A stretch of DNA of 64,000 bases from Nigrospora sphaerica (lineage: Eukaryota > Ascomycota > Sordariomycetes > Amphisphaeriales > Apiosporaceae). Location: contig JAGVVL010000018.1 in NCBI GenBank assembly GCA_018287875.1, forward strand, positions 2,410,501-2,474,500, in the 5' to 3' direction. A model generated the notes under the pieces. The model was not told where the DNA came from and made no database searches. It saw only the letters and a program-made list of their open reading frames with translations. This document shows positions 10,418 to 64,000 of the stretch, one piece after another. The position numbers were made by a program, and so were the translations under genes. Within the stretch, counting starts at the first letter, position 1. Each line of letters starts with the position of its first letter.

Positions 10418-12396
10418 ATGTGGCGGCCGGGACGAAATGCCCTCCTGGTGGCAGCCTCTGGACTGCTGCTGATAAGTTCGGCACCGGCCCATGGGTATCA
10501 TCTCGACGCAAATTCATCCGGTAGGACTTTCCACCAGCCCTAAATAAGGACGGGGAACCCTTCTTACTGATTCTGTGGTTTAGACTCCATTAGACCCGTC
10601 GCCAAACAAATGGCTGCAGACCTCATGTCTTTCTACGAGGGCGACCAACCCGGTGGCACTCCTGGTCTTCTACCACGGCCATATTACTGTAAGGCTGAGA
10701 ATATTGTAACCGTTCGAGGCTCGGTTTCTAACAAGCGCGTCCGGCAGGGTGGGAAGCGGGTGCCATGATGGGCGCCATGATCGACTACTGGTATTATACG
10801 GAGGACACAACATACAATAACCAGACGACAGAAGCCTTGCTCTTCCAGGCCGGCAACCACGCCGACTTTATGCCGTCCAACCAAACATTGACCGAGGGAA
10901 ACGATGACCAGGGGTTTTGGGCCATGTCGGCCATGACGGCCGCCGAATACAAGTTCCCCGATCCGCCCCCAGGCGAGCCCGGGTGGCTGGCTCTGGCCCA
11001 GGCCGTCTTCAATACACAAGCCGCCCGGTGGGACACGGAACACTGTGACGGCGGCCTAAGGTGGCAGATCTCCACGTGGAACAACGGCTACAATTACAAG
11101 AATAGTATCTCGCAGGCTACGTTCTTCAACCTGGCCGCACGCTTGGCGCTGTATACCGACAACAGCACTTATGCCGATTGGGCCGTCAAAACGTGGGACT
11201 GGATGGTCAGCGTCAAATTCATCGATGAGAAATACTACATATACGATGGGGCACACATTGAGGATGGCTGCAAGAAGATTGTCCCGTACCAGTTCTCCTA
11301 CAATCCGGTTTGTATTGGGCCCGCCTCGTTGGTTTACGTGATGAAAGAACTGACGAGGCCGGAATAGGGAGCTTTCTTGCTGGGCGCCGCTGCCATGTAT
11401 GCTTATAGCGACAACATGAAGCAGCCGGACAAGGCCAACATGTGGCGCGAGAGGATCGACGGCCTCATCGAAGGACTGCAGGTCTTCTTTCACCAAGACA
11501 CGCCCGATGGTCCCGAGATTATGTTCGAGGTTGCCTGCGAGCCAGTCAATCTCTGCGACGTGGACCAACAGTCTTTCAAAGCCTATTTGAGCAGATGGAT
11601 GGCGGCAACTACCAAGTGGGCACCGTGGACGTACGACGTGATCAAGCCCCTGCTCGCCCACTCGGCCGTCGCGGCCGCGAGGACATGCACTGGCGGCGAC
11701 AACAATCGCATGTGCGGTCTGCGGTGGGTCAACAACTCGGGGGTGTGGGACGGCACGACGGGCGTGGGACAGCAGATGGCCGCCATGGAAGTCGTCCTGG
11801 CCAACATGATACGACACGCCGAGCCGCCTGTGACCAATCGCACCGGCGGGACGAGCGCGGGGGACCCGAGTGCCAGCGGAGCGGACATCGGAAGAAAGCA
11901 CCCCGAGGGAGCCATTGCTTTCAGGCCTTTAACGGCGGCCGATCGGGCCGGCGGCGTGATTCTCACGGTCGGCATCATCTCGGCGCTCCTAACGGCTATC
12001 GCGTACATGGTCACGGATGAGACAAAGACGACCTCGGAGAATGTACGGTTGCTAGCGGGAGGACTTGGAGAAAAGCCAGATAGGGGCCCTGAAAAAGGGA
12101 AGGGCCTCGAGGGCCGCAGTTCCACCGAGTCGGGGGAGGTGACGCGGTCAGCATCTGCTACGTCTTACGGACAACCTCCTACCTTCCAGCTGCGGCCTCC
12201 CGAACAAGCAGCCGGCGGTCTGGCGACGAAGAGAGGCTCGCTAACTTTTGCCGAGGACTGGCCCTTTCAACGGCAGGACGCCGGGCAACAGCAGCCTGAA
12301 GAGCTGCAGCCCGAAGATCTGCAACGTCCGAGGAGCTCCGTATCGAAGAAAGGGGCGACGCTACAGAAGAGGAAAAGCAGATTGAGTACCATGTGA
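10418..12396 (+). CDS. GH76 endo-1,6-alpha-mannanase-like cell-wall enzyme (DFG5/DCW1 family)
   Basis: Four exons: 10418-10520, 10584-10688, 10748-11307 and 11368-12396. The introns are 63, 59 and 60 bp; the last removes an in-frame TAG and joins YNP to GAFLLGAAAMYAY. The product is 598 aa. A signal peptide (about 1-26, LLVAASGLLLISSAPAHG) precedes a GH76 barrel with WWEAGAMMGAMIDYWYYT and the catalytic aspartate pair in EGNDDQGFWA (about 122-123). Several N-glycosylation sequons are present. Yeast relatives are GPI proteins thought to cross-link GPI-mannoproteins to wall glucan by acting on the GPI core mannan. This protein instead has an internal hydrophobic segment (about 450-472) and a hydrophilic tail of roughly 125 residues rich in Pro, Gln and Ser, so it looks membrane-spanning. 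The start is the ATG giving the signal peptide. Confidence 0.92.
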
Positions 12397-42197: not shown

Positions 42198-42843
42198 CAG
42201 CATGTAGCTGCTGTACGCAGAGGGCAGCAGCCAAGAGAACCGGCAGATACGTCTACAGCGGCTGTTGCGAACCCGAAGCAACCCGGTGGCCCTCGTGGTA
42301 CCAGTGGCCAGGTATTTGGGTCGAGCGTGCCCAGCGACTGAATCGTACGCCGGGTGCTGAGCCGACCCCTGCCACAGCCGGAGATAACGAGAAACAACAA
42401 TCCTCAATACCACAAGTGCCATTAGGTCAGAGGCGCATCATTTCGAACCCTATCGTCCATCGATGCAACCTGACGCGCAACACGGAACGCGGGCCAAGCG
42501 TCTGCTCGAGGGGGCTTGGAATCCTGTAAACTCTCCGCTGACCATGGATGGGGCAATGCTCAAAGACTCATCTAAAAGTAAGCCAAAGAAGCACAACACG
42601 AGAGTCCACTCCCAATGGCACAGAAGCGCGCTGTGCATTTTGGGCTTGTGATTCGATGGGGGCTGTGCGACTGTAGCTCGGTCTACGACCATTTGGTTCA
42701 ACACCCTGTGTTGAATAATGCCAAAAATGGTGGGTGTGCCATCTTCATGCTGTGGTAACCCATCATGGCGACGACAGCCCGAAACGAAAATATAACCAGC
42801 AAAAGGGAGGGATGGAGGTATGGGTAAGAAATGCAAAAAGAAG
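42198..42843. other. Intergenic spacer
   Basis: Esterase 3' flank up to the tRNA gene; nothing else recognised. Confidence 0.6.
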
Positions 42844-42931
42844 GGTCTCGCCGGGGATCGAACCCGGGACCTCGCGCAATATTACTTAGAGTAAGCCCTA
42901 AGCGCGAATTATACCACTAAACCACGAGACC
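42844..42931 (-). tRNA. tRNA-Pro(AGG) with intron
   Basis: Read on the minus strand: acceptor GGTCTCG pairs with CGAGACC; D-arm contains GTTTAGTGGTATAAT; anticodon stem CGCGC/GCGCG encloses a loop TT-AGG-G...T; T-arm CCGGG-TTCGATC-CCCGG is perfect. The anticodon AGG reads proline codons CCU/CCC. A 17-nt intron (about 42871-42887) lies after position 37, the canonical place for eukaryotic nuclear tRNA introns and also intron-bearing in yeast tRNA-Pro. The B box GGTTCGATCC is intact, which makes it a useful contrast to the tRNA-Arg gene near 61 kb. Confidence 0.95.
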
Positions 42932-57359: not shown

Positions 57360-58064
57360 TCACCAGTCTAGGACCTCGCGAGTGGGCTGGTCAACCCTGA
57401 TATCTTTCTTGCCCTGAGCAGGCGGCGTAGGCTCTTCTTCGGGGGTGTTCAAGATTTCCCGGTTGATGTTCCACTTCTGTATCTGATCGTCCACAATTCG
57501 CGTCCAGGAAGAGATGAGGGGGTGCGAACTGGCAACATCCTCGAAAATGATGTCTTTGTCGGAACGGCCGGCGACAGCTGGCACGACATTGTATTTCCAA
57601 GTGCCGTCCGGATTCCAATACTGTTCATCGAAGACCATGGTTGTGCTCAGTTTCTCCCGAGCGTCGGCGAGAAGCTCGCAGGCCCGGTTATGGTCATCGC
57701 CGCCCGCGGCCCGCAAAGCGGCCGCTATGCCCTCGAGGTAACCCAGAAGCTCGCCAGCTTTCAGCCCAATGGTAGCTGCCAGGCTGAAACCCTCATCAAA
57801 GCCCGCTTGAATGCTCTGGGCCTTAGCGGCCGTGATCCCTTCACGGTAGCCGGCCGTGGCATGTTCAGTCTGCAGCCGATGCACGTCTGATGGGTGCGAA
57901 TTCCTGCCGTCCGGACCATCTTGAGAACCGCCAAAGACGGGCGAGTCGTTGTCGGAGCCAAAAACATCATCCAGAGAATCGTCGACGACAGCGACGGGTT
58001 GCGTTGCCGAGGCCATGGTAACGAACAGATCCTCGTCTTGGGATTCTCGGCGTGCCAGGTGCAT
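57360..58064 (-). CDS. yae1: Deca-GX3 protein Yae1
   Basis: A single exon, 234 aa from the first ATG (58064), or 218 from a second ATG at 58016 in a better context (ACCATGG); which is used is open. The hallmark is the deca-GX3 motif at about 71-112: AGYREGITAAKAQSIQAGFD, EGFSLAATIGLKAGELLGYL. It forms a helical hairpin that pairs with Lto1. The Yae1-Lto1 complex is an adaptor that brings the cytosolic iron-sulfur machinery to the ABC protein Rli1/ABCE1, needed for ribosome recycling. A Trp residue closes the protein (REVLDW); a C-terminal Trp is a known cytosolic iron-sulfur targeting feature in Lto1 rather than Yae1, so its meaning here is unclear. The acidic N-terminus (DDSLDDVFGSDND) is usual. 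Confidence 0.87.
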   Translation of the reverse strand: MHLARRESQDEDLFVTMASATQPVAVVDDSLDDVFGSDNDSPVFGGSQDGPDGRNSHPSDVHRLQTEHATAGYREGITAAKAQSIQAGFDEGFSLAATIGLKAGELLGYLEGIAAALRAAGGDDHNRACELLADAREKLSTTMVFDEQYWNPDGTWKYNVVPAVAGRSDKDIIFEDVASSHPLISSWTRIVDDQIQKWNINREILNTPEEEPTPPAQGKKDIRVDQPTREVLDW

Positions 58065-59452
58065 TGTCGACGAGACGGCGTAGTGTGTTATGAGATTGAC
58101 GTCCTCGAGATACGGTAGGCGTATTCAAGGCACTTGTGTTCGGGGGGTAGGTAGCGCCTGCCTTGAGATTGTCCGGAAGACCTGGGGGTGTTTTTTTCCG
58201 AAGTGAGTCAGCGCACGGTGTGACAGTGGTTTAGTGGGCGACGAGGGACAGTGCATGCACAGTATGATCGAGTGTCCAGACGTAGGTACGGAGTAGTGGC
58301 GACACAGTCTGCATGAAAGCTTCACATCCCATACGCTTTTCATTCACCAGGAGAGTGTCGATGCCGTTCGATTAACTACACACCTACTTTAGGTAACTGG
58401 TGTATTGAGGTAGGTACTTGTACCGTACGTGCAGATTCACCGGAAATGTATGCCAGCTTGGATTTTACATGCAGCTGTACATCGCCGCCCGCAACACGCC
58501 AGTCGCGGCCGGAAAATGTCCTATTCGCCCGGTTGTTGCGCAGCGTCCACACCCATTTGCGGCAGAGGCTCGTAACGCCGAACATCTCGGCGGAATCCCC
58601 GTAAGCAATGCCATCATCGTAAAAGGCAATGAGTGATGGAACCCTGGGCTGCCGTCCTGAAACAACCCTATGCGCCCTTCCCAGACCCAATCCAGTGTTT
58701 TCTCGCCGTTGCGCAAAGGCTGTCGGGGGACAATTCCCGGTAGTCGGTCGTCGTACCCGCAACCCGGGCTCTTGACAGCGCTTGGCAGGGTACGCACGGA
58801 TCAGCACCGGCTCCTCCCTTCACCCGAGGCGAGGGAAAAGCCCCAACTCCGGATCTGCGCCTCCATCCATCCATCGCCTCGCATTGCCTCGCATCACACC
58901 AACGCCAACGAGTCCAAGCTTTCCAATCCATCCCGTCCAACCCAGTTGCTCGCGGACCTTGAGTCCGGAACTGCGTCCTCGCGTCAGCACTGGCACGGCG
59001 ACCTTCACCATTCCGATTAGGTAAGTCCGCCTTCTCGTCTGCTTAGTCGCTCCGCGGGCTGCGTGGCGAGCCGCCGCTATCCTCAAACTCCGCATTTGAA
59101 CCCCGGCCGAGGAGTTCGGATGCCGAGGTCCTACAGCTTGTGTGGCCGGAGTGCCGGCAAGCCACGCAAACCTATCTACTGGGCTGCCGGCGAGGGGTTT
59201 TGCTCGATGCTGTGTCCCGTATAAGACCTCTTCCCTTTCACTCACGATACCCTTCGTCTTATTGCACTCTATCACGAGCTTGTGCACGCACTCTTACACA
59301 TCATGTTTTCACAGATTCCTTCCCCCTCCGGTAGGCTCTCACCTTCACGGGAAAACAGCCAATCAGCTGCCCTGAGTCTGTCCTTCAACATAGACTCCCG
59401 TCAGCCGTCTCGGTCATCGTCCTTCTCGTCCGTCTGGACAGAGGCTACCACC
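58065..59452. other. Intergenic region between divergent genes
   Basis: About 1.4 kb with the YAE1 promoter, a TGAGTCA box (58204-58210), TACCTAC/GTAGGTA motifs at about 58283 and 58381-58425, and the leader of the PPCS gene. An in-frame ATG at 59303 and a possible leader intron (GTAGGC at about 59332 to GACAG before 59441) lie in that leader. Confidence 0.5.
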
Positions 59453-60661
59453 ATGTCTACCGCGTCCACCCAGGACACCGCGGCTGCCTCTCAGCTAGTG
59501 GCCGAGAGTGACTACTTCGCCTCTAACCCTCCGCCCAAGGCATTGGGTTCGCACGTGGAGCAAGCACGATCCTTCGTTGAGCACCACGCTTCGCTCAAGA
59601 GGCGTGTAGTACTGGTCACGTCAGGAGGCACCACGGTGCCTCTGGAGAAGCAGACGGTGCGCTTTATTGATAATTTCAGCGCTGGTACCCGTGGTGCCAC
59701 GTCGGCCGAGTACTTTCTGGAAGCGGGCTATGCCGTCATCTTCCTCCACCGGCAGTTCTCTCTGCTGCCGTACAGTCGGCACTACAGCCATTCGACCGAC
59801 TGCTTCCTGGACTTCCTACACGAAGCCGAGGACGGCAGCGTCGTGGCCAATCCGACCCACCAGGAGAAGATGCTGGGGGTTCTGCGCAAGTACAACACCG
59901 CCAAGCAGAAGCGCATGCTGCTCATGCTGCCCTTCACCACCATTACCGACTACCTGCACGAGCTACGGGCCGTAGCGCAGCTCATGCGCCCTTTGGGGCC
60001 CGACGGTCTCCTTTACCTTGCGGCCGCCGTGTCGGATTTCTTCGTTCCGCCGGAGCGCATGTCGGAGCACAAGATCCAGAGTACAGATGCCACCTCCAGC
60101 TTCAAGCCACAGCAGGGCCCAGCCACCACAACGGAGCAGCCGCGCCAGAATGCCGACGAGCCCGAGGAGACGTTTGACAACTTCGACTCGTCGCCTAGTG
60201 TACCGCGCAGCAAGCGCCTCATCGTGGACCTGGACCCCGTCCCCAAGTTCCTCAAGAACCTCGTTGACGGCTGGGCGCCCGAGGGCATGATCGTCTCCTT
60301 CAAGCTGGAGACGGACCCGCAGATTCTGGTGCACAAAGCCAAGTACTCGCTGAACCGGTACCAGCACCATCTGGTCATCGGCAACCTGTTGACTACGCGT
60401 AAGTGGGAGGTGGTCTTTGTGGCACCCGGCCAGTCGGACCGCTGGATCCGGGTCCCGAGCAACCGGAGGAGAAAGACTGTCAGCGGCAACGAGTCTCAGA
60501 TCGGTGCCAGTGACCGGAACTGGATGGAACAGGATAAGCCCATGGATCCATCCATGCTACCTGAGGGTGAGCCGGAGATGGAAATTGAGAGCCTGATCAT
60601 CCCTGCGGTGCAAGACTTGCACGGGAAGCATATTGAACAATCCAAGGCAAGGATGAGCTGA
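59453..60661 (+). CDS. cab2: Phosphopantothenate-cysteine ligase (PPCS)
   Basis: Joins 4'-phosphopantothenate to cysteine in coenzyme A synthesis (yeast Cab2). A single exon, 402 aa from the ATG at 59453 in a CACCATG context; a longer frame from an ATG at 59303 is possible but its extra residues look unconserved. Signature blocks: RRVVLVTSGGTTVPLEKQTV, RFIDNFSAGTRGATSAEYFL, LLYLAAAVSDFFVPPERMSE and LVIGNLLTTRKWEVVFVAPG. An acidic Ser/Pro-rich insert (about 220-255) sits before the conserved KRLIVDLDPVPKFLKNLVDG and GMIVSFKLETDP. This is the eukaryotic form, a stand-alone ligase without the fused decarboxylase found in bacteria. Confidence 0.93.
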   Translation: MSTASTQDTAAASQLVAESDYFASNPPPKALGSHVEQARSFVEHHASLKRRVVLVTSGGTTVPLEKQTVRFIDNFSAGTRGATSAEYFLEAGYAVIFLHRQFSLLPYSRHYSHSTDCFLDFLHEAEDGSVVANPTHQEKMLGVLRKYNTAKQKRMLLMLPFTTITDYLHELRAVAQLMRPLGPDGLLYLAAAVSDFFVPPERMSEHKIQSTDATSSFKPQQGPATTTEQPRQNADEPEETFDNFDSSPSVPRSKRLIVDLDPVPKFLKNLVDGWAPEGMIVSFKLETDPQILVHKAKYSLNRYQHHLVIGNLLTTRKWEVVFVAPGQSDRWIRVPSNRRRKTVSGNESQIGASDRNWMEQDKPMDPSMLPEGEPEMEIESLIIPAVQDLHGKHIEQSKARMS

Positions 60662-61120
60662 ACAGACTACGAAGCATGGTTCTGGAGTAGTAATGCAGTG
60701 GGTTTGCTGCGTGTCGCCGCTCTCCGTACCACGATGTGAGATGCAATGCGTGTCCATACTTGCTCGTGGCTTCCACTGTGTCCCACGTTACCTGCTACAA
60801 TTGAGCATGTAAGATAGGTGCTTGAAGTGAGCGATCGAGGTACTTGGGTACTTCTTCGAAATAATACGAGCTGCCGATGAAAGAGTCAGGGGGGGCACGA
60901 AGGCAACACTATTTGAACGGCCATGGTATTTTGATGCCCAAGCCATAGGGGCGCTTTCTCCTTTGACGGGAAATACTCTCAAATCAGTCGGAAGATTCCC
61001 CCCCCCCCCCAGCCGGTGGATGAACCTATCACCTGGAGGGCATCCTGTGGTAACATGTGGCGAACATAGGAGGTAATAAAAGGAGCGGAAGTGACATTCC
61101 TTTGTGAGGCAAAAGGAAAG
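60662..61120. other. Intergenic spacer
   Basis: PPCS 3' flank up to the terminator of the tRNA-Arg gene; a 10-C tract near 61000-61010. Nothing else seen. Confidence 0.55.
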
Positions 61121-61125
61121 AAAAA
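61121..61125 (-). terminator. Pol III T-run terminator of tRNA-Arg
   Basis: TTTTT on the minus strand, 15 nt after the discriminator base of the tRNA-Arg gene. Five T residues are enough for RNA polymerase III termination in fungi. Confidence 0.6.
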
Positions 61126-61140
61126 GGTAATATGAAGCAG

Positions 61141-61281
61141 CACCCCAGGTGGGACTCGACTGTTGGTTCCAAGGTTAGCTGTCTGGCCTGGCAGGTGTTG
61201 CAGCAGGGGGTACTTACACCCGCAATCTTCAGATTTCCTCACAAGTAGGAGTCTGATGAGTTACCATTTCTCTACTAGGGC
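61141..61281 (-). tRNA. tRNA-Arg(CCT) with two introns, one in the T-loop
   Basis: Read on the minus strand and without the two insertions, this is a 72-nt cloverleaf. Acceptor GCCCTAG pairs with CTGGGGT (two G-T wobbles) plus discriminator G; D-arm GAG-AAATGGTAA-CTC; anticodon stem TCAGA/TCTGA with loop CT-CCT-A/A; variable AGATT; T-arm GCGGG-TTCGAGT-CCCAC (one C-A mismatch). The parts ATGGTAAC, ACTCCTA and GAAGATTGCGGGTTCGAGTCCC match tRNA-Arg(CCT) of yeast as I recall it. An 11-nt intron follows A37, the canonical position. A second insertion, 58 bp, splits the T-loop after T54 (see its own entry). The CCT anticodon reads AGG codons and is usually encoded by one or few genes. A T5 terminator lies just downstream. 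If no intact copy exists elsewhere, the insertion must be spliced out. Confidence 0.82.
61160..61217 (-). other. Spliceosomal-type intron inside the tRNA-Arg T-loop
   Basis: 58 bp on the minus strand between T54 and T55 of the tRNA. It starts GTAAGTACC, contains GCTAACC (matching the fungal branch consensus RCTRAC) with the branch A about 16 nt before the end, and finishes CCAACAG. Size, donor, branch and acceptor equal those of the mRNA introns in this window (for example 52 bp at 47470-47521, 59 bp at 10689-10747). Exact removal rebuilds TTCGAGT. The insertion splits the B box, the internal Pol III promoter element, although GGTGTAAGTACC across the donor keeps a faint B-box likeness. Confidence 0.75.
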
Positions 61282-61292
61282 AAGATTCTCTA

Positions 61293-61303
61293 CCACTCGG
61301 CCA
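61293..61303 (-). promoter_or_regulatory. Perfect Pol III A-box-like element upstream of tRNA-Arg
   Basis: TGGCCGAGTGG matches the A-box consensus TRGYNNARNGG exactly and lies 12 nt upstream of the tRNA 5' end. The gene's own A box (TAGAGAAATGG) is imperfect. It may be an accessory promoter element or the remnant of a second tRNA; the flanking CCACA...TAGAGAATCTT does not fold into a complete tRNA. Confidence 0.4.
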
Positions 61304-62144
61304 TGTGGTTGTAGAAGTTCTCTGATTGTTGGGAAAGGATGCCCTTGATTCGGTACATCAGCGACAACCCCGAAACCTCAAGGTTCGCGGATGGGGAGGA
61401 GCGCAGGCAGCAGACATAGGTGTACTAAATACCAGATAGATCAGGATCAGGAGCAGGCAGACTGGTAGTCCAAGCCAATGCCCTCAGTTTGCAAACGGAC
61501 AAGGTTGTACCAAGCCCATCTAAAAGAAGCAGCTTGACCTAAGCAGGCGAGCCGGCCCAGTGAAGTTAGACAAGAGACAGGAGAGATGCCCATGCCTCAC
61601 AGCCCAAGGCACGTGGATTGAACTCGCCGCTTAGGGCATATGGAGCACCCTCAACTATTTCTATCCAAGTTCATGTACCTACTTAGGTAAGTACTTAGTC
61701 AAGGGCTCATCTTCAGTCTGCCATCATTATTCCACCATACCAGAGACAAGTCCTTAATTCCATGTTTCTTTACATCTGACCAAAGGGGAGAGGCTCGACA
61801 GGCTACACCATTCCCCCCATTAACAGTGCTACCATCTACATATCTAATGGGCAGGGTCGTCTTGATGATTGCACGACTTCAGCCAAGGACGTGGCCACCC
61901 AGTCTATATGCTCCCGCTGCAGCCTCACCACGTGCGCCATGGTGACCAACAGATGGACGGCCCTTCGGTCAGTAGAAACCAGCCGGGCTACTAGCCAAAG
62001 CTTTACTACCCCACAAGTATGTACACGGTGCCGCATCGGTACTGGAGTAAACAGGCTATTAATTCTTATTTCCGTTTCGGCGGCATACAGGTTGTTAGGT
62101 ACCAAGGTACATGGTGAGCCCGCTGAAGTGTGCTCTGCTGTTGG
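61304..62144. other. Intergenic region
   Basis: About 0.8 kb between the tRNA and the transcription-factor 3' end, with motifs TGTACCTACTTAGGTAAGTAC (about 61674) and TTAGGTACC (about 62094). No gene supported. Confidence 0.55.
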
Positions 62145-64000
62145 TCAGACGATCAGGCAGTCGAAACCCATGGCTCTCAACTGCACGCGCCAGTCTTGGG
62201 CGCATATGGCGTTTTCGGATCCCTCTGCTCCGGCGCTATCACGGGCCTCTACCCCTTCGGCCTCAATTAAACCTTTGTCTTTCAACTGCCATATCTTGTT
62301 TAGCGTCTCGATGGCCGACCTGATCATCCCCCACGGGCAGAGATCCCACATCTCCTGCAGTCGCGAGGCGACCCACAGCCGGCGCGCGGGGGAGACTATC
62401 TCCACCCCCATCATGAAGAGCGGCCAAGTGGTGTACTTGAACAGCGGGCTGTCGACGCGGATATGCGACAGGTGGTGGTGGATGGTGGTGGCCAGGTCCC
62501 CTACCGTGGGCGCCGAGGCCCAGCCGGCATCTCCGTTCTGGCCGGTGCTGCGCGATGCGGCGAAGGACTGCAGTCCGGGGACGGCCAGCAAAACGTACAG
62601 GCAGGCGGCGGCACGGTACGTGGCCGCGATGCGCTTGCGGTACTCGACTTCTTGCTCGTTGGCGAAGCCCAGCTCGGCGCTGGCAGCGCACATCCTCGCC
62701 ACCCACAACTGTACGTCGAAAGCCTCGGCCTCCTTGAGAAGGGCCAACCCTTCTTCCATATCGTCTGGCGTGGCGTGCCTGCCGGCCTGCCGCCCAATAG
62801 CGCGGGCCAGGCGAGCGGTGCACAGAATGTTGAGAAGCAGATCGGTCGGGCAGCTGTGGTAGCTGTTGGCCTCGGTCCGTCGCAGGATGGGCAGAAGACG
62901 AGCCGGGTCGAGCTCGACGTACGGGGACACCTGGGAGCCGGGCAGAGGGATAATGAGCGAGTCGAGCGTACAGCCCCAGATGTAGTAGGCGACCGAGTCG
63001 GAGGCGATGTAGTCGCGGATGCTGAGCTCACAGGACTCGCCAAGGGGAGTTGCCGATTGGACCATTTCGAGGCACTCCAACTCGGGCCACGCACCGCCGA
63101 ACAAGCCGTCCTTGGCCAGGGCAACATGGCGCGCCGCATTCTCGCCGTGCGATAACGTCTTTGTTGGGGCATCAGAGATCTGCGCTATGACAAGCCGGGC
63201 AGCCGCTTGCATGTGCGCTCGCCACCCACCTTTCCCCGAGTCGACGAGGGCGAAATTGAGAAAGAAGAGGACGGTGGCCAGCACGGCATCCTTGTCGCTT
63301 TGTTGTGCGGCGCCGTCGCCTTGGAACCGATGTCTCTCGAGGATCTCCTGGAGGCCCCTGATGGCTTCATGGCGGGCGCGTAGAGCGTCCACCAGCGCGT
63401 TGGCCGAAGCCACGGCCTCGGGGGCGCCCGGCCGAGAGCCGGCCGTCGCATTAGAGAAATGCAAAGCCGATGCTGCGATGATGATGTGGTGGAGGAAGGG
63501 GTAGTTTCGCGAAAAAGGTATCAACTCCCGGAACGGGTTTCTGGCCACCTGGTGATACGAATCGTGGACTACGAGGTCCCGACAAAAACGCTTTTCAACT
63601 GGGCACGCATCGTTGGCAGTGAGCAACGAGACGCAGGGAAGGAAAGCTGCACTCACAGTACATCAGGTAGTACCTCGACGACCCGTCCAGATCCTGCACG
63701 AGAGGGTCCAGAAGCGACTGCGGTAAGGCAGGGTTCAGCTCGAAGCCCTGGGCCGGCACCGGTTCCGGAGCCGGTGGCGTCGGGGCCGGGGCGGCTCGGG
63801 ATCGGCCAAGGCTACGGGACCGATCCGAGCTCTCCGGGGCAAACGTCGTCCGACCCGCCATGCGGCCGCGCGACGCCACCGCCTCGGTCCATCGAAACAG
63901 TGGCCCGTAACCGAGACAGTCCTGGCCCGTTGTGGCGCATTTGACACAGTACGGCAGGGATCGGTCACAGCGCCGGCGATTCTTGCGGCAGTTGTGACAG
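62145..64000 (-). CDS. Zn(II)2Cys6 transcription factor, 5' end cut by window edge
   Basis: Two exons seen, 64000-63657 and 63598-62145, around a 58-bp intron (GTGAGT donor, CCCAG acceptor). About 599 codons are present; the start lies beyond the right edge. The first visible residues are the Gal4-type binuclear cluster CHNCRKNRRRCDRSLPYC, then VKCATTGQDC, with the C-x2-C-x6-C-x6-C-x2-C-x6-C spacing exact. A Pro-rich linker follows. After it comes the fungal-specific C-terminal domain (PF11951-like), beginning RYYLMYFEKRFCRDLVVHDS, NPFRELIPF and FLHHIIIAASALHFSNATA, typical of regulators that bind CGG-containing sites. Target genes cannot be inferred; it has no adjacent biosynthetic cluster in the window. 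Confidence 0.92.

Follow-up and report, generated by a model that had tools for sequence, protein, structure and literature searches.

Can a nuclear tRNA gene be interrupted in its T loop by an intron of the mRNA type and still give rise to a tRNA? This question is raised by a tRNA-Arg(CCT) gene of the fungus Nigrospora sphaerica, which lies at 61281-61141 on the minus strand of the 64,000-nt stretch analysed here (the window; GenBank assembly GCA_018287875.1, contig JAGVVL010000018.1, positions 2,410,501 to 2,474,500). The feature is genuine, and it recurs: in this genome, spliceosomal-type introns stand in the T loop of at least three tRNA genes, Arg(CCT), Arg(TCT) and Lys(TTT), all with one splice grammar, and taking the inserts out restores cloverleaves. 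The inserts are probably spliceosomal introns that were gained in tRNA genes transcribed by RNA polymerase III (Pol III) and that are removed by the spliceosome. Judging from sequence, we lean towards the view that the window gene gained a short U2-type T-loop intron, as one of at least three such nuclear tRNA genes, and that genes of this kind would be spliced and functional.

Anatomy of the interrupted tRNA-Arg(CCT) gene

Reading the minus strand places the 5' acceptor strand, the D arm, the 5' anticodon arm and the anticodon CCT (positions 1-37) at 61246-61281, an ordinary 11-nt tRNA intron at 37/38 at 61235-61245, the 3' anticodon arm, variable loop, 5' T stem and T54 (positions 38-54) at 61218-61234, a 58-nt spliceosomal-type intron between T54 and T55 at 61160-61217, and the remainder of the tRNA, from T55 to the discriminator G73 (the rest of the T loop, the 3' T stem and the 3' acceptor strand), at 61141-61159. 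Strand, coordinates and both insertions agree with the initial annotation. The latter also described a complete cloverleaf, which holds for the 72 nt of the joined exons and for the acceptor stem (seven of seven positions paired, two of them as G-U), but not throughout: even when spliced, the tRNA has 19 of 21 cloverleaf pairs, with C50.A64 in the T stem and A13.A22 in the D stem unpaired and an unusual A11-U24, and it matches 22 of the 24 universal tRNA positions used for scoring, A11 and T24 being the deviations. Pair 13-22 is also absent from the Arg(ACG) gene, and the intact Arg(CCT) gene of the genome pairs at 20 of 21. The window gene is far from all 17 intact genes compared, with at best 55 of 72 positions identical. 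Pairing of AGGA in the 11-nt intron with UCCU in the anticodon loop is possible, although this is weak evidence, with 272 of 2000 intron shuffles scoring equally.

Programs recognise the gene once the insert is removed or jumped. ARAGORN finds no tRNA in the unspliced gene, calls a tRNA when the 58 nt are taken out (setting the 11-nt intron elsewhere and naming the product Ser(cga)), and calls tRNA-Arg(CCT) when the 11 nt are removed as well. A default ARAGORN run on the window calls no tRNA, and the same run also overlooks an ordinary tRNA-Pro(AGG) gene with a 37/38 intron (42843-42931, minus strand), which was rejected as a candidate for an interrupted gene. The Rfam tRNA model reaches 26 bits against a threshold of 29, with a false T arm made of intron bases. 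By contrast, a covariance model built from four other Arg tRNAs of the genome, with the window gene left out (model R2), aligns to 61281-61141 over its full length, jumping the insert, with 39.1 bits and an E value of 3.6e-8; the 56.9 bits reached by a model that includes the window gene are circular. In 3.84 Mb of shuffled sequence, a 3' half of such quality turned up twice, which corresponds to about 1e-4 expected occurrences within 200 nt. The unspliced 141 nt, folded as a single strand, are no more stable than shuffles (z -0.09).

Spliceosomal-type introns in three tRNA genes

The 58-nt insert has the GTAAGT donor, GCTAAC branch-like motif and CAG acceptor that were claimed for it, with the branch A 15 nt before the intron end, a spacing of about 15 nt being usual in fungal introns. 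In the window, this strict combination of donor, branch and acceptor is present a single time, where 0.05 would be expected per strand. The looser GTRAGT..RCTRAC..YAG has two matches over both strands, where 0.45 would be expected per strand, so that by itself it would not be telling. It had also been claimed that the insert follows the grammar of spliceosomal introns in this genome. Two coding-gene introns could be placed in the window for comparison, with their exact ends read by eye: one of 58 nt in a transcription factor gene (63656-63599; GTGAGT..CAG, with GCTCAC at the place of the branch motif), bounded by the proteins of relatives, and one of 60 nt in a GH76 gene (11308-11367; GTTTGT..ACTGAC..TAG), across which the Pfam profile runs on. 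The likeness extends to size, but the signals of both coding introns are looser than those of the insert. A DNA query of the genome for a source of the insert finds the insert itself only. A group I intron was rejected: no group I family is among the two matches at E<=1 in 58000-64000, and 58 nt is too short for a group I catalytic core. We consider it highly probable that the insert is a spliceosomal-type intron.

Two further genes in the genome are interrupted in the same way. A query with the intact Arg(TCT) gene gave a partial match at C10:2481718 that ends at the T stem. This is a tRNA-Arg(TCT) gene (locus L130, 1501-1643; strand opposite to that of the window gene) with a 10-nt intron at 37/38 and a 61-nt insert at 53/54, GTATGT..GCTGAC..AAG. 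Queries with other isoacceptors gave a partial match to Lys(TTT) at C9:1058037 (locus L150, 1502-1633), a gene without a 37/38 intron that has a 59-nt insert at 53/54, GTGAGT..TACTAAC..AAG. At all three loci, the insert has to be taken out before ARAGORN calls a tRNA; the Rfam model scores the Arg(TCT) and Lys(TTT) genes over threshold despite their inserts (36.9 and 45.2 bits). Once spliced, both have 21 of 21 cloverleaf pairs, and all 24 universal positions are matched in Arg(TCT). The Arg(TCT) gene and the window gene, which both encode Arg tRNAs that read AGR codons, are separated by 10 kb and face opposite ways (C10:2471641-2481860).

All three inserts (58, 61 and 59 nt) match GT[AG][ATG]GT..CT[AG]AC..[ACT]AG, a motif written after the inserts had been seen. 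It occurs in 5, 0 and 0 of 400,000 random window stretches, where the insert itself may account for the five, and in 0, 0 and 1 of 400,000 shuffles of each insert. A scan for the same grammar through the window and 86 loci of the genome (228,460 bases, overlaps included, mostly picked by tRNA searches) returned just the three interrupted genes. Beyond their GT..CTRAC..AG signals, the inserts share no sequence, so that they give the impression of having been gained separately or long ago; a common origin is unsupported by sequence similarity, with 134, 814 and 552 of 1000 shuffles equally similar, and a DNA query for a source of the Arg(TCT) insert elsewhere in the genome found none.

DNA queries for 15 isoacceptors were used to look for interrupted copies. 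For 11 of these, every candidate of the first look was scored in full: Arg(CCT) (1/1 and 2/2), Arg(TCT) (8/8), Lys(TTT), Gln(TTG), Pro(AGG) and Leu(CAA) (18/18), and Lys(CTT), Gly(TCC), Arg(TCG), Arg(ACG) and Thr(TGT) (30/30). A larger query added Thr(CGT), Thr(AGT), Tyr and initiator Met, with 40 of 67 candidates scored, so that coverage of these four is incomplete. Close paralogs are all that such queries can reach: the window tRNA, once joined, finds itself alone and overlooks the intact Arg(CCT) gene, and vice versa.

Transcription, redundancy and rival explanations

Scored against the consensus internal promoter boxes, the window gene has the A box TAGAGAAATGG and a split B box, with CAGTCGAGTCC across the 3' junction at 54/55, three bases off. 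Just upstream of the gene, at 61303-61293 on the minus strand, stands TGGCCGAGTGG, an A-box-like sequence that we take to be of the Leu/Ser tRNA type; it may be what is left of an adjacent tRNA, or an additional promoter element. At 53/54, the intron's final AG together with TTCGANNCC rebuilds a B box: the 3' junctions of Arg(TCT) and Lys(TTT) read AGTTCGACCCC and AGTTCGAATCC, in each case a B box with its first G replaced by A, and B boxes that start with AGTTC are also found in the uninterrupted Gln(TTG) and Thr(TGT) tRNAs of the genome. With the B box rebuilt, Pol III transcription could survive the insertion, which may be why introns are tolerated at 53/54; this link between splice site and promoter is a proposal of the present analysis. 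A run of ten T follows the Lys(TTT) gene within 10 nt, a TTTTT at 61121-61125 (minus strand), 15 nt past the 3' end of the window gene, is a possible Pol III terminator, and the first run of five T after Arg(TCT) comes about 41 nt past the gene. Of 14 distinct uninterrupted nuclear tRNA genes, ten have five or more T within 50 nt; the intact Arg(CCT) gene has just four. Of the three genes, the window copy is weakest, with C50.A64, A11-U24 and the poorer B box. Judged by the B box, transcription by Pol III is more probable for Arg(TCT) and Lys(TTT) than for the window copy, which, with its insert at 54/55, may be poorly expressed.

For these genes, the polymerase, the splicing and the function are what we infer. 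Pol III would transcribe each gene from its A box and B box to a T-run terminator, and the spliceosome would take out the T-loop intron by its donor, branch site and AG, as in the Pol III transcript of the U6 gene of Schizosaccharomyces pombe. The T arm would form only after removal of this intron, and once it had formed, RNase P, RNase Z and, where a 37/38 intron is present, the tRNA splicing endonuclease could act. We think it somewhat likelier than the contrary that mature tRNA is made by splicing from at least one of the three loci; for the window gene itself, such a product seems possible but rather doubtful.

The strongest competing explanation is that the interrupted genes are dead copies, in which spliceosomal introns entered redundant tRNA genes, for example by reverse splicing, and from which tRNA is no longer made, the intact paralogs doing the work. 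Redundancy is plain. The initial annotation had suggested that the window gene might be the only reader of AGG, a codon that occurs 20 times in the seven reading frames counted; this is refuted by an uninterrupted tRNA-Arg(CCT) gene at C12:5830557-5830628. The pattern that led to it gave 15 matches, against 21 in a reversed control; all 15 were read and nine were passed to ARAGORN, by which two were identified as Arg(CCT), one of them nuclear (on C12) and the other on the bacterial contig C19. An earlier, narrower pattern gave no match, and a second one gave five matches against six in its control, none tRNA-like by eye. Intact paralogs with the same anticodon also exist for Arg(TCT) (C16:803391) and Lys(TTT) (C13:1753140). 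Because of these paralogs, cells need not rely on the interrupted genes, none of which needs to work, and this leaves room for dead copies.

Several other observations weigh against functional, spliced genes. In the window gene, three B-box bases are lost to the insert, with CAG in place of GGT, position 11 of the A box, where the A11-U24 pair lies, deviates from consensus, and the T-stem mismatch C50.A64 stays unpaired. Most of the uninterrupted isoacceptors searched have no such insert. Moreover, eukaryotic genes with insertions in the D and T arms are supposed to be pseudogenes (PMC4090602). The other two genes, in contrast, do not look decayed. None of the 21 pairs is broken in either spliced tRNA. 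Arg(TCT) differs from its intact paralog at four of 72 positions, namely a compensatory change of a C-G to a T-A pair, a G-U to G-C change and the discriminator, and Lys(TTT) differs from its own at three of 73, all in loops. Random changes keep all pairs in 15,228 (7.6%) and 29,028 (14.5%) of 200,000 trials, respectively; the joint chance is about 1%, provided that the changes came after intron gain. The paired substitutions may instead predate the gain, and 7.6% and 14.5% are not strong. On the other hand, all three introns retain complete splice signals, which decay would erase, and a true relic in this genome looks different: a tRNA-Arg(TCG) remnant at C16:2089971-2090019 (minus strand; L166), an example of genuine tRNA decay, lacks the 5' half and has a changed T55. 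Overall, we regard dead copies as a serious possibility that is less than even.

It is unlikely that the tRNA sequences are instead parts of longer Pol II transcripts, non-coding RNAs or 3' untranslated regions, in which the inserts would be ordinary introns, whether or not a tRNA is later released. The window gene does lie 864 nt downstream of a transcription factor gene on the same strand, ending at 62145. Nonetheless, an intron at nearly one tRNA position in three loci is not what such transcripts would lead one to expect, the ten T after Lys(TTT) are typical of Pol III, and the open reading frame list for 3 kb around Arg(TCT) holds no long frame taken for a gene.

We consider it very improbable that the inserts are bulge-helix-bulge (BHB) introns, cut by the tRNA endonuclease at an ectopic position. 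T-arm introns of this kind exist in Cyanidioschyzon, nucleomorphs and archaea (PMC4090602; PMC3978253), and the Arg(TCT) and Lys(TTT) inserts reach four of four central pairs, but 344 and 515 of 1000 shuffles do as well, and the window insert, with three of four, was rejected as a BHB intron after 988 of 1000 shuffles (1971 of 2000 in a second run) equalled it. Chance resemblance or assembly error, for which a single assembly as source speaks, is scarcely credible given the R2 match and the recurrence of one grammar at three loci on two contigs.

Genomic setting and relation to known introns

The initial annotation proposed related Sordariales for comparison of the locus, a group that does not fit the neighbouring genes: among named organisms, their closest relatives come from Apiospora and other fungi of the Xylariales type. 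One neighbour, a phosphopantothenate-cysteine ligase, shares 76-78% identity with two Apiospora proteins and 95% with a metagenome protein; the other, the transcription factor, shares 55-58% identity with Apiospora homologs over 84-96% coverage. Judged by locus tags (PG994_004617 and PG994_004620), both genes lie on one contig in Apiospora phragmitis. Elsewhere in the assembly, contig C19 (836,366 bases) has many tRNAs, one with an encoded CCA, a GC content of 39-40% in two 9-kb pieces, and bacterial-looking genes (DnaJ, SerRS and an ankyrin protein, named by eye); its SerRS has at most 58% identity among the best 80 GTDB relatives listed, mostly gamma- and betaproteobacterial. C19 could be a reduced, divergent bacterial symbiont assembled together with the fungus. 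In C22, tRNA matches recur at a spacing of about 91.3 kb, and they do so again in C24, as if the mitochondrial genome had been assembled as an overlapping or doubled contig.

Spliceosomal introns in stable non-coding RNAs have precedents. The U6 small nuclear RNA of S. pombe has an mRNA-type intron (Tani and Ohshima, cited in PMC8917221), for which an origin by reverse splicing has been proposed (PMC10484740). Here, by contrast, introns interrupt tRNAs and divide the B box, at three loci that are known from sequence alone. Another precedent is given by the ectopic introns in the ribosomal RNA genes (rDNA) of lichen fungi and other ascomycetes, which are likewise spliceosomal introns in a stable RNA gene outside Pol II transcription; one of 57 bp, from the rDNA of a lichen, is removed in yeast from transcripts made by Pol I (PMC8527467). 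Those hosts are rRNAs made by Pol I, whereas here we are concerned with tRNAs and Pol III. Extra tRNA introns outside 37/38 are also found in archaea, at 53/54 and elsewhere, in Cyanidioschyzon merolae and in the T arm of nucleomorph tRNAs (PMC4090602; PMC3978253). They are BHB introns or insertions of 3-24 nt, cut by the tRNA endonuclease or by unknown means, unlike the GT-AG inserts with a branch motif described here, for which BHB pairing is no better than chance. The claim that known nuclear tRNA introns lie only after position 37 is thus too broad, since nuclear T-arm or other non-canonical introns of BHB type or unknown mechanism are described in Cyanidioschyzon and nucleomorphs (PMC4090602). 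Among the entries listed in searches of an open-licence library, none was seen to describe a nuclear tRNA gene with a spliceosomal intron. Such genes would be easily missed because the non-canonical intron search of tRNAscan-SE 2.0 is described for candidates of the archaeal model (PMC8450103), and the present case shows how they can escape annotation.

Our analysis suggests that some tRNAs of this fungus need the mRNA-splicing machinery to mature. Whether they form a class of spliceosome-dependent nuclear tRNA genes, comprising at least three tRNAs (AAA, AGA and AGG) with U2-type T-loop introns whose 3' splice site, at 53/54, would act both in splicing and, as part of the rebuilt B box, in Pol III transcription, and coupling tRNA supply in part to the spliceosome, is in our estimate evenly balanced. 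If the introns are spliced, there would be a second nuclear tRNA splicing route besides the tRNA endonuclease, the spliceosome would be linked to decoding supply, and the order of maturation would be forced, with the spliceosome acting before RNases P and Z. The genes would then be useful as natural substrates in which very short exons lie on a Pol III RNA, and would document how non-coding genes gain introns. Even if the copies are dead, they would still record the entry of spliceosomal introns into tRNA genes.
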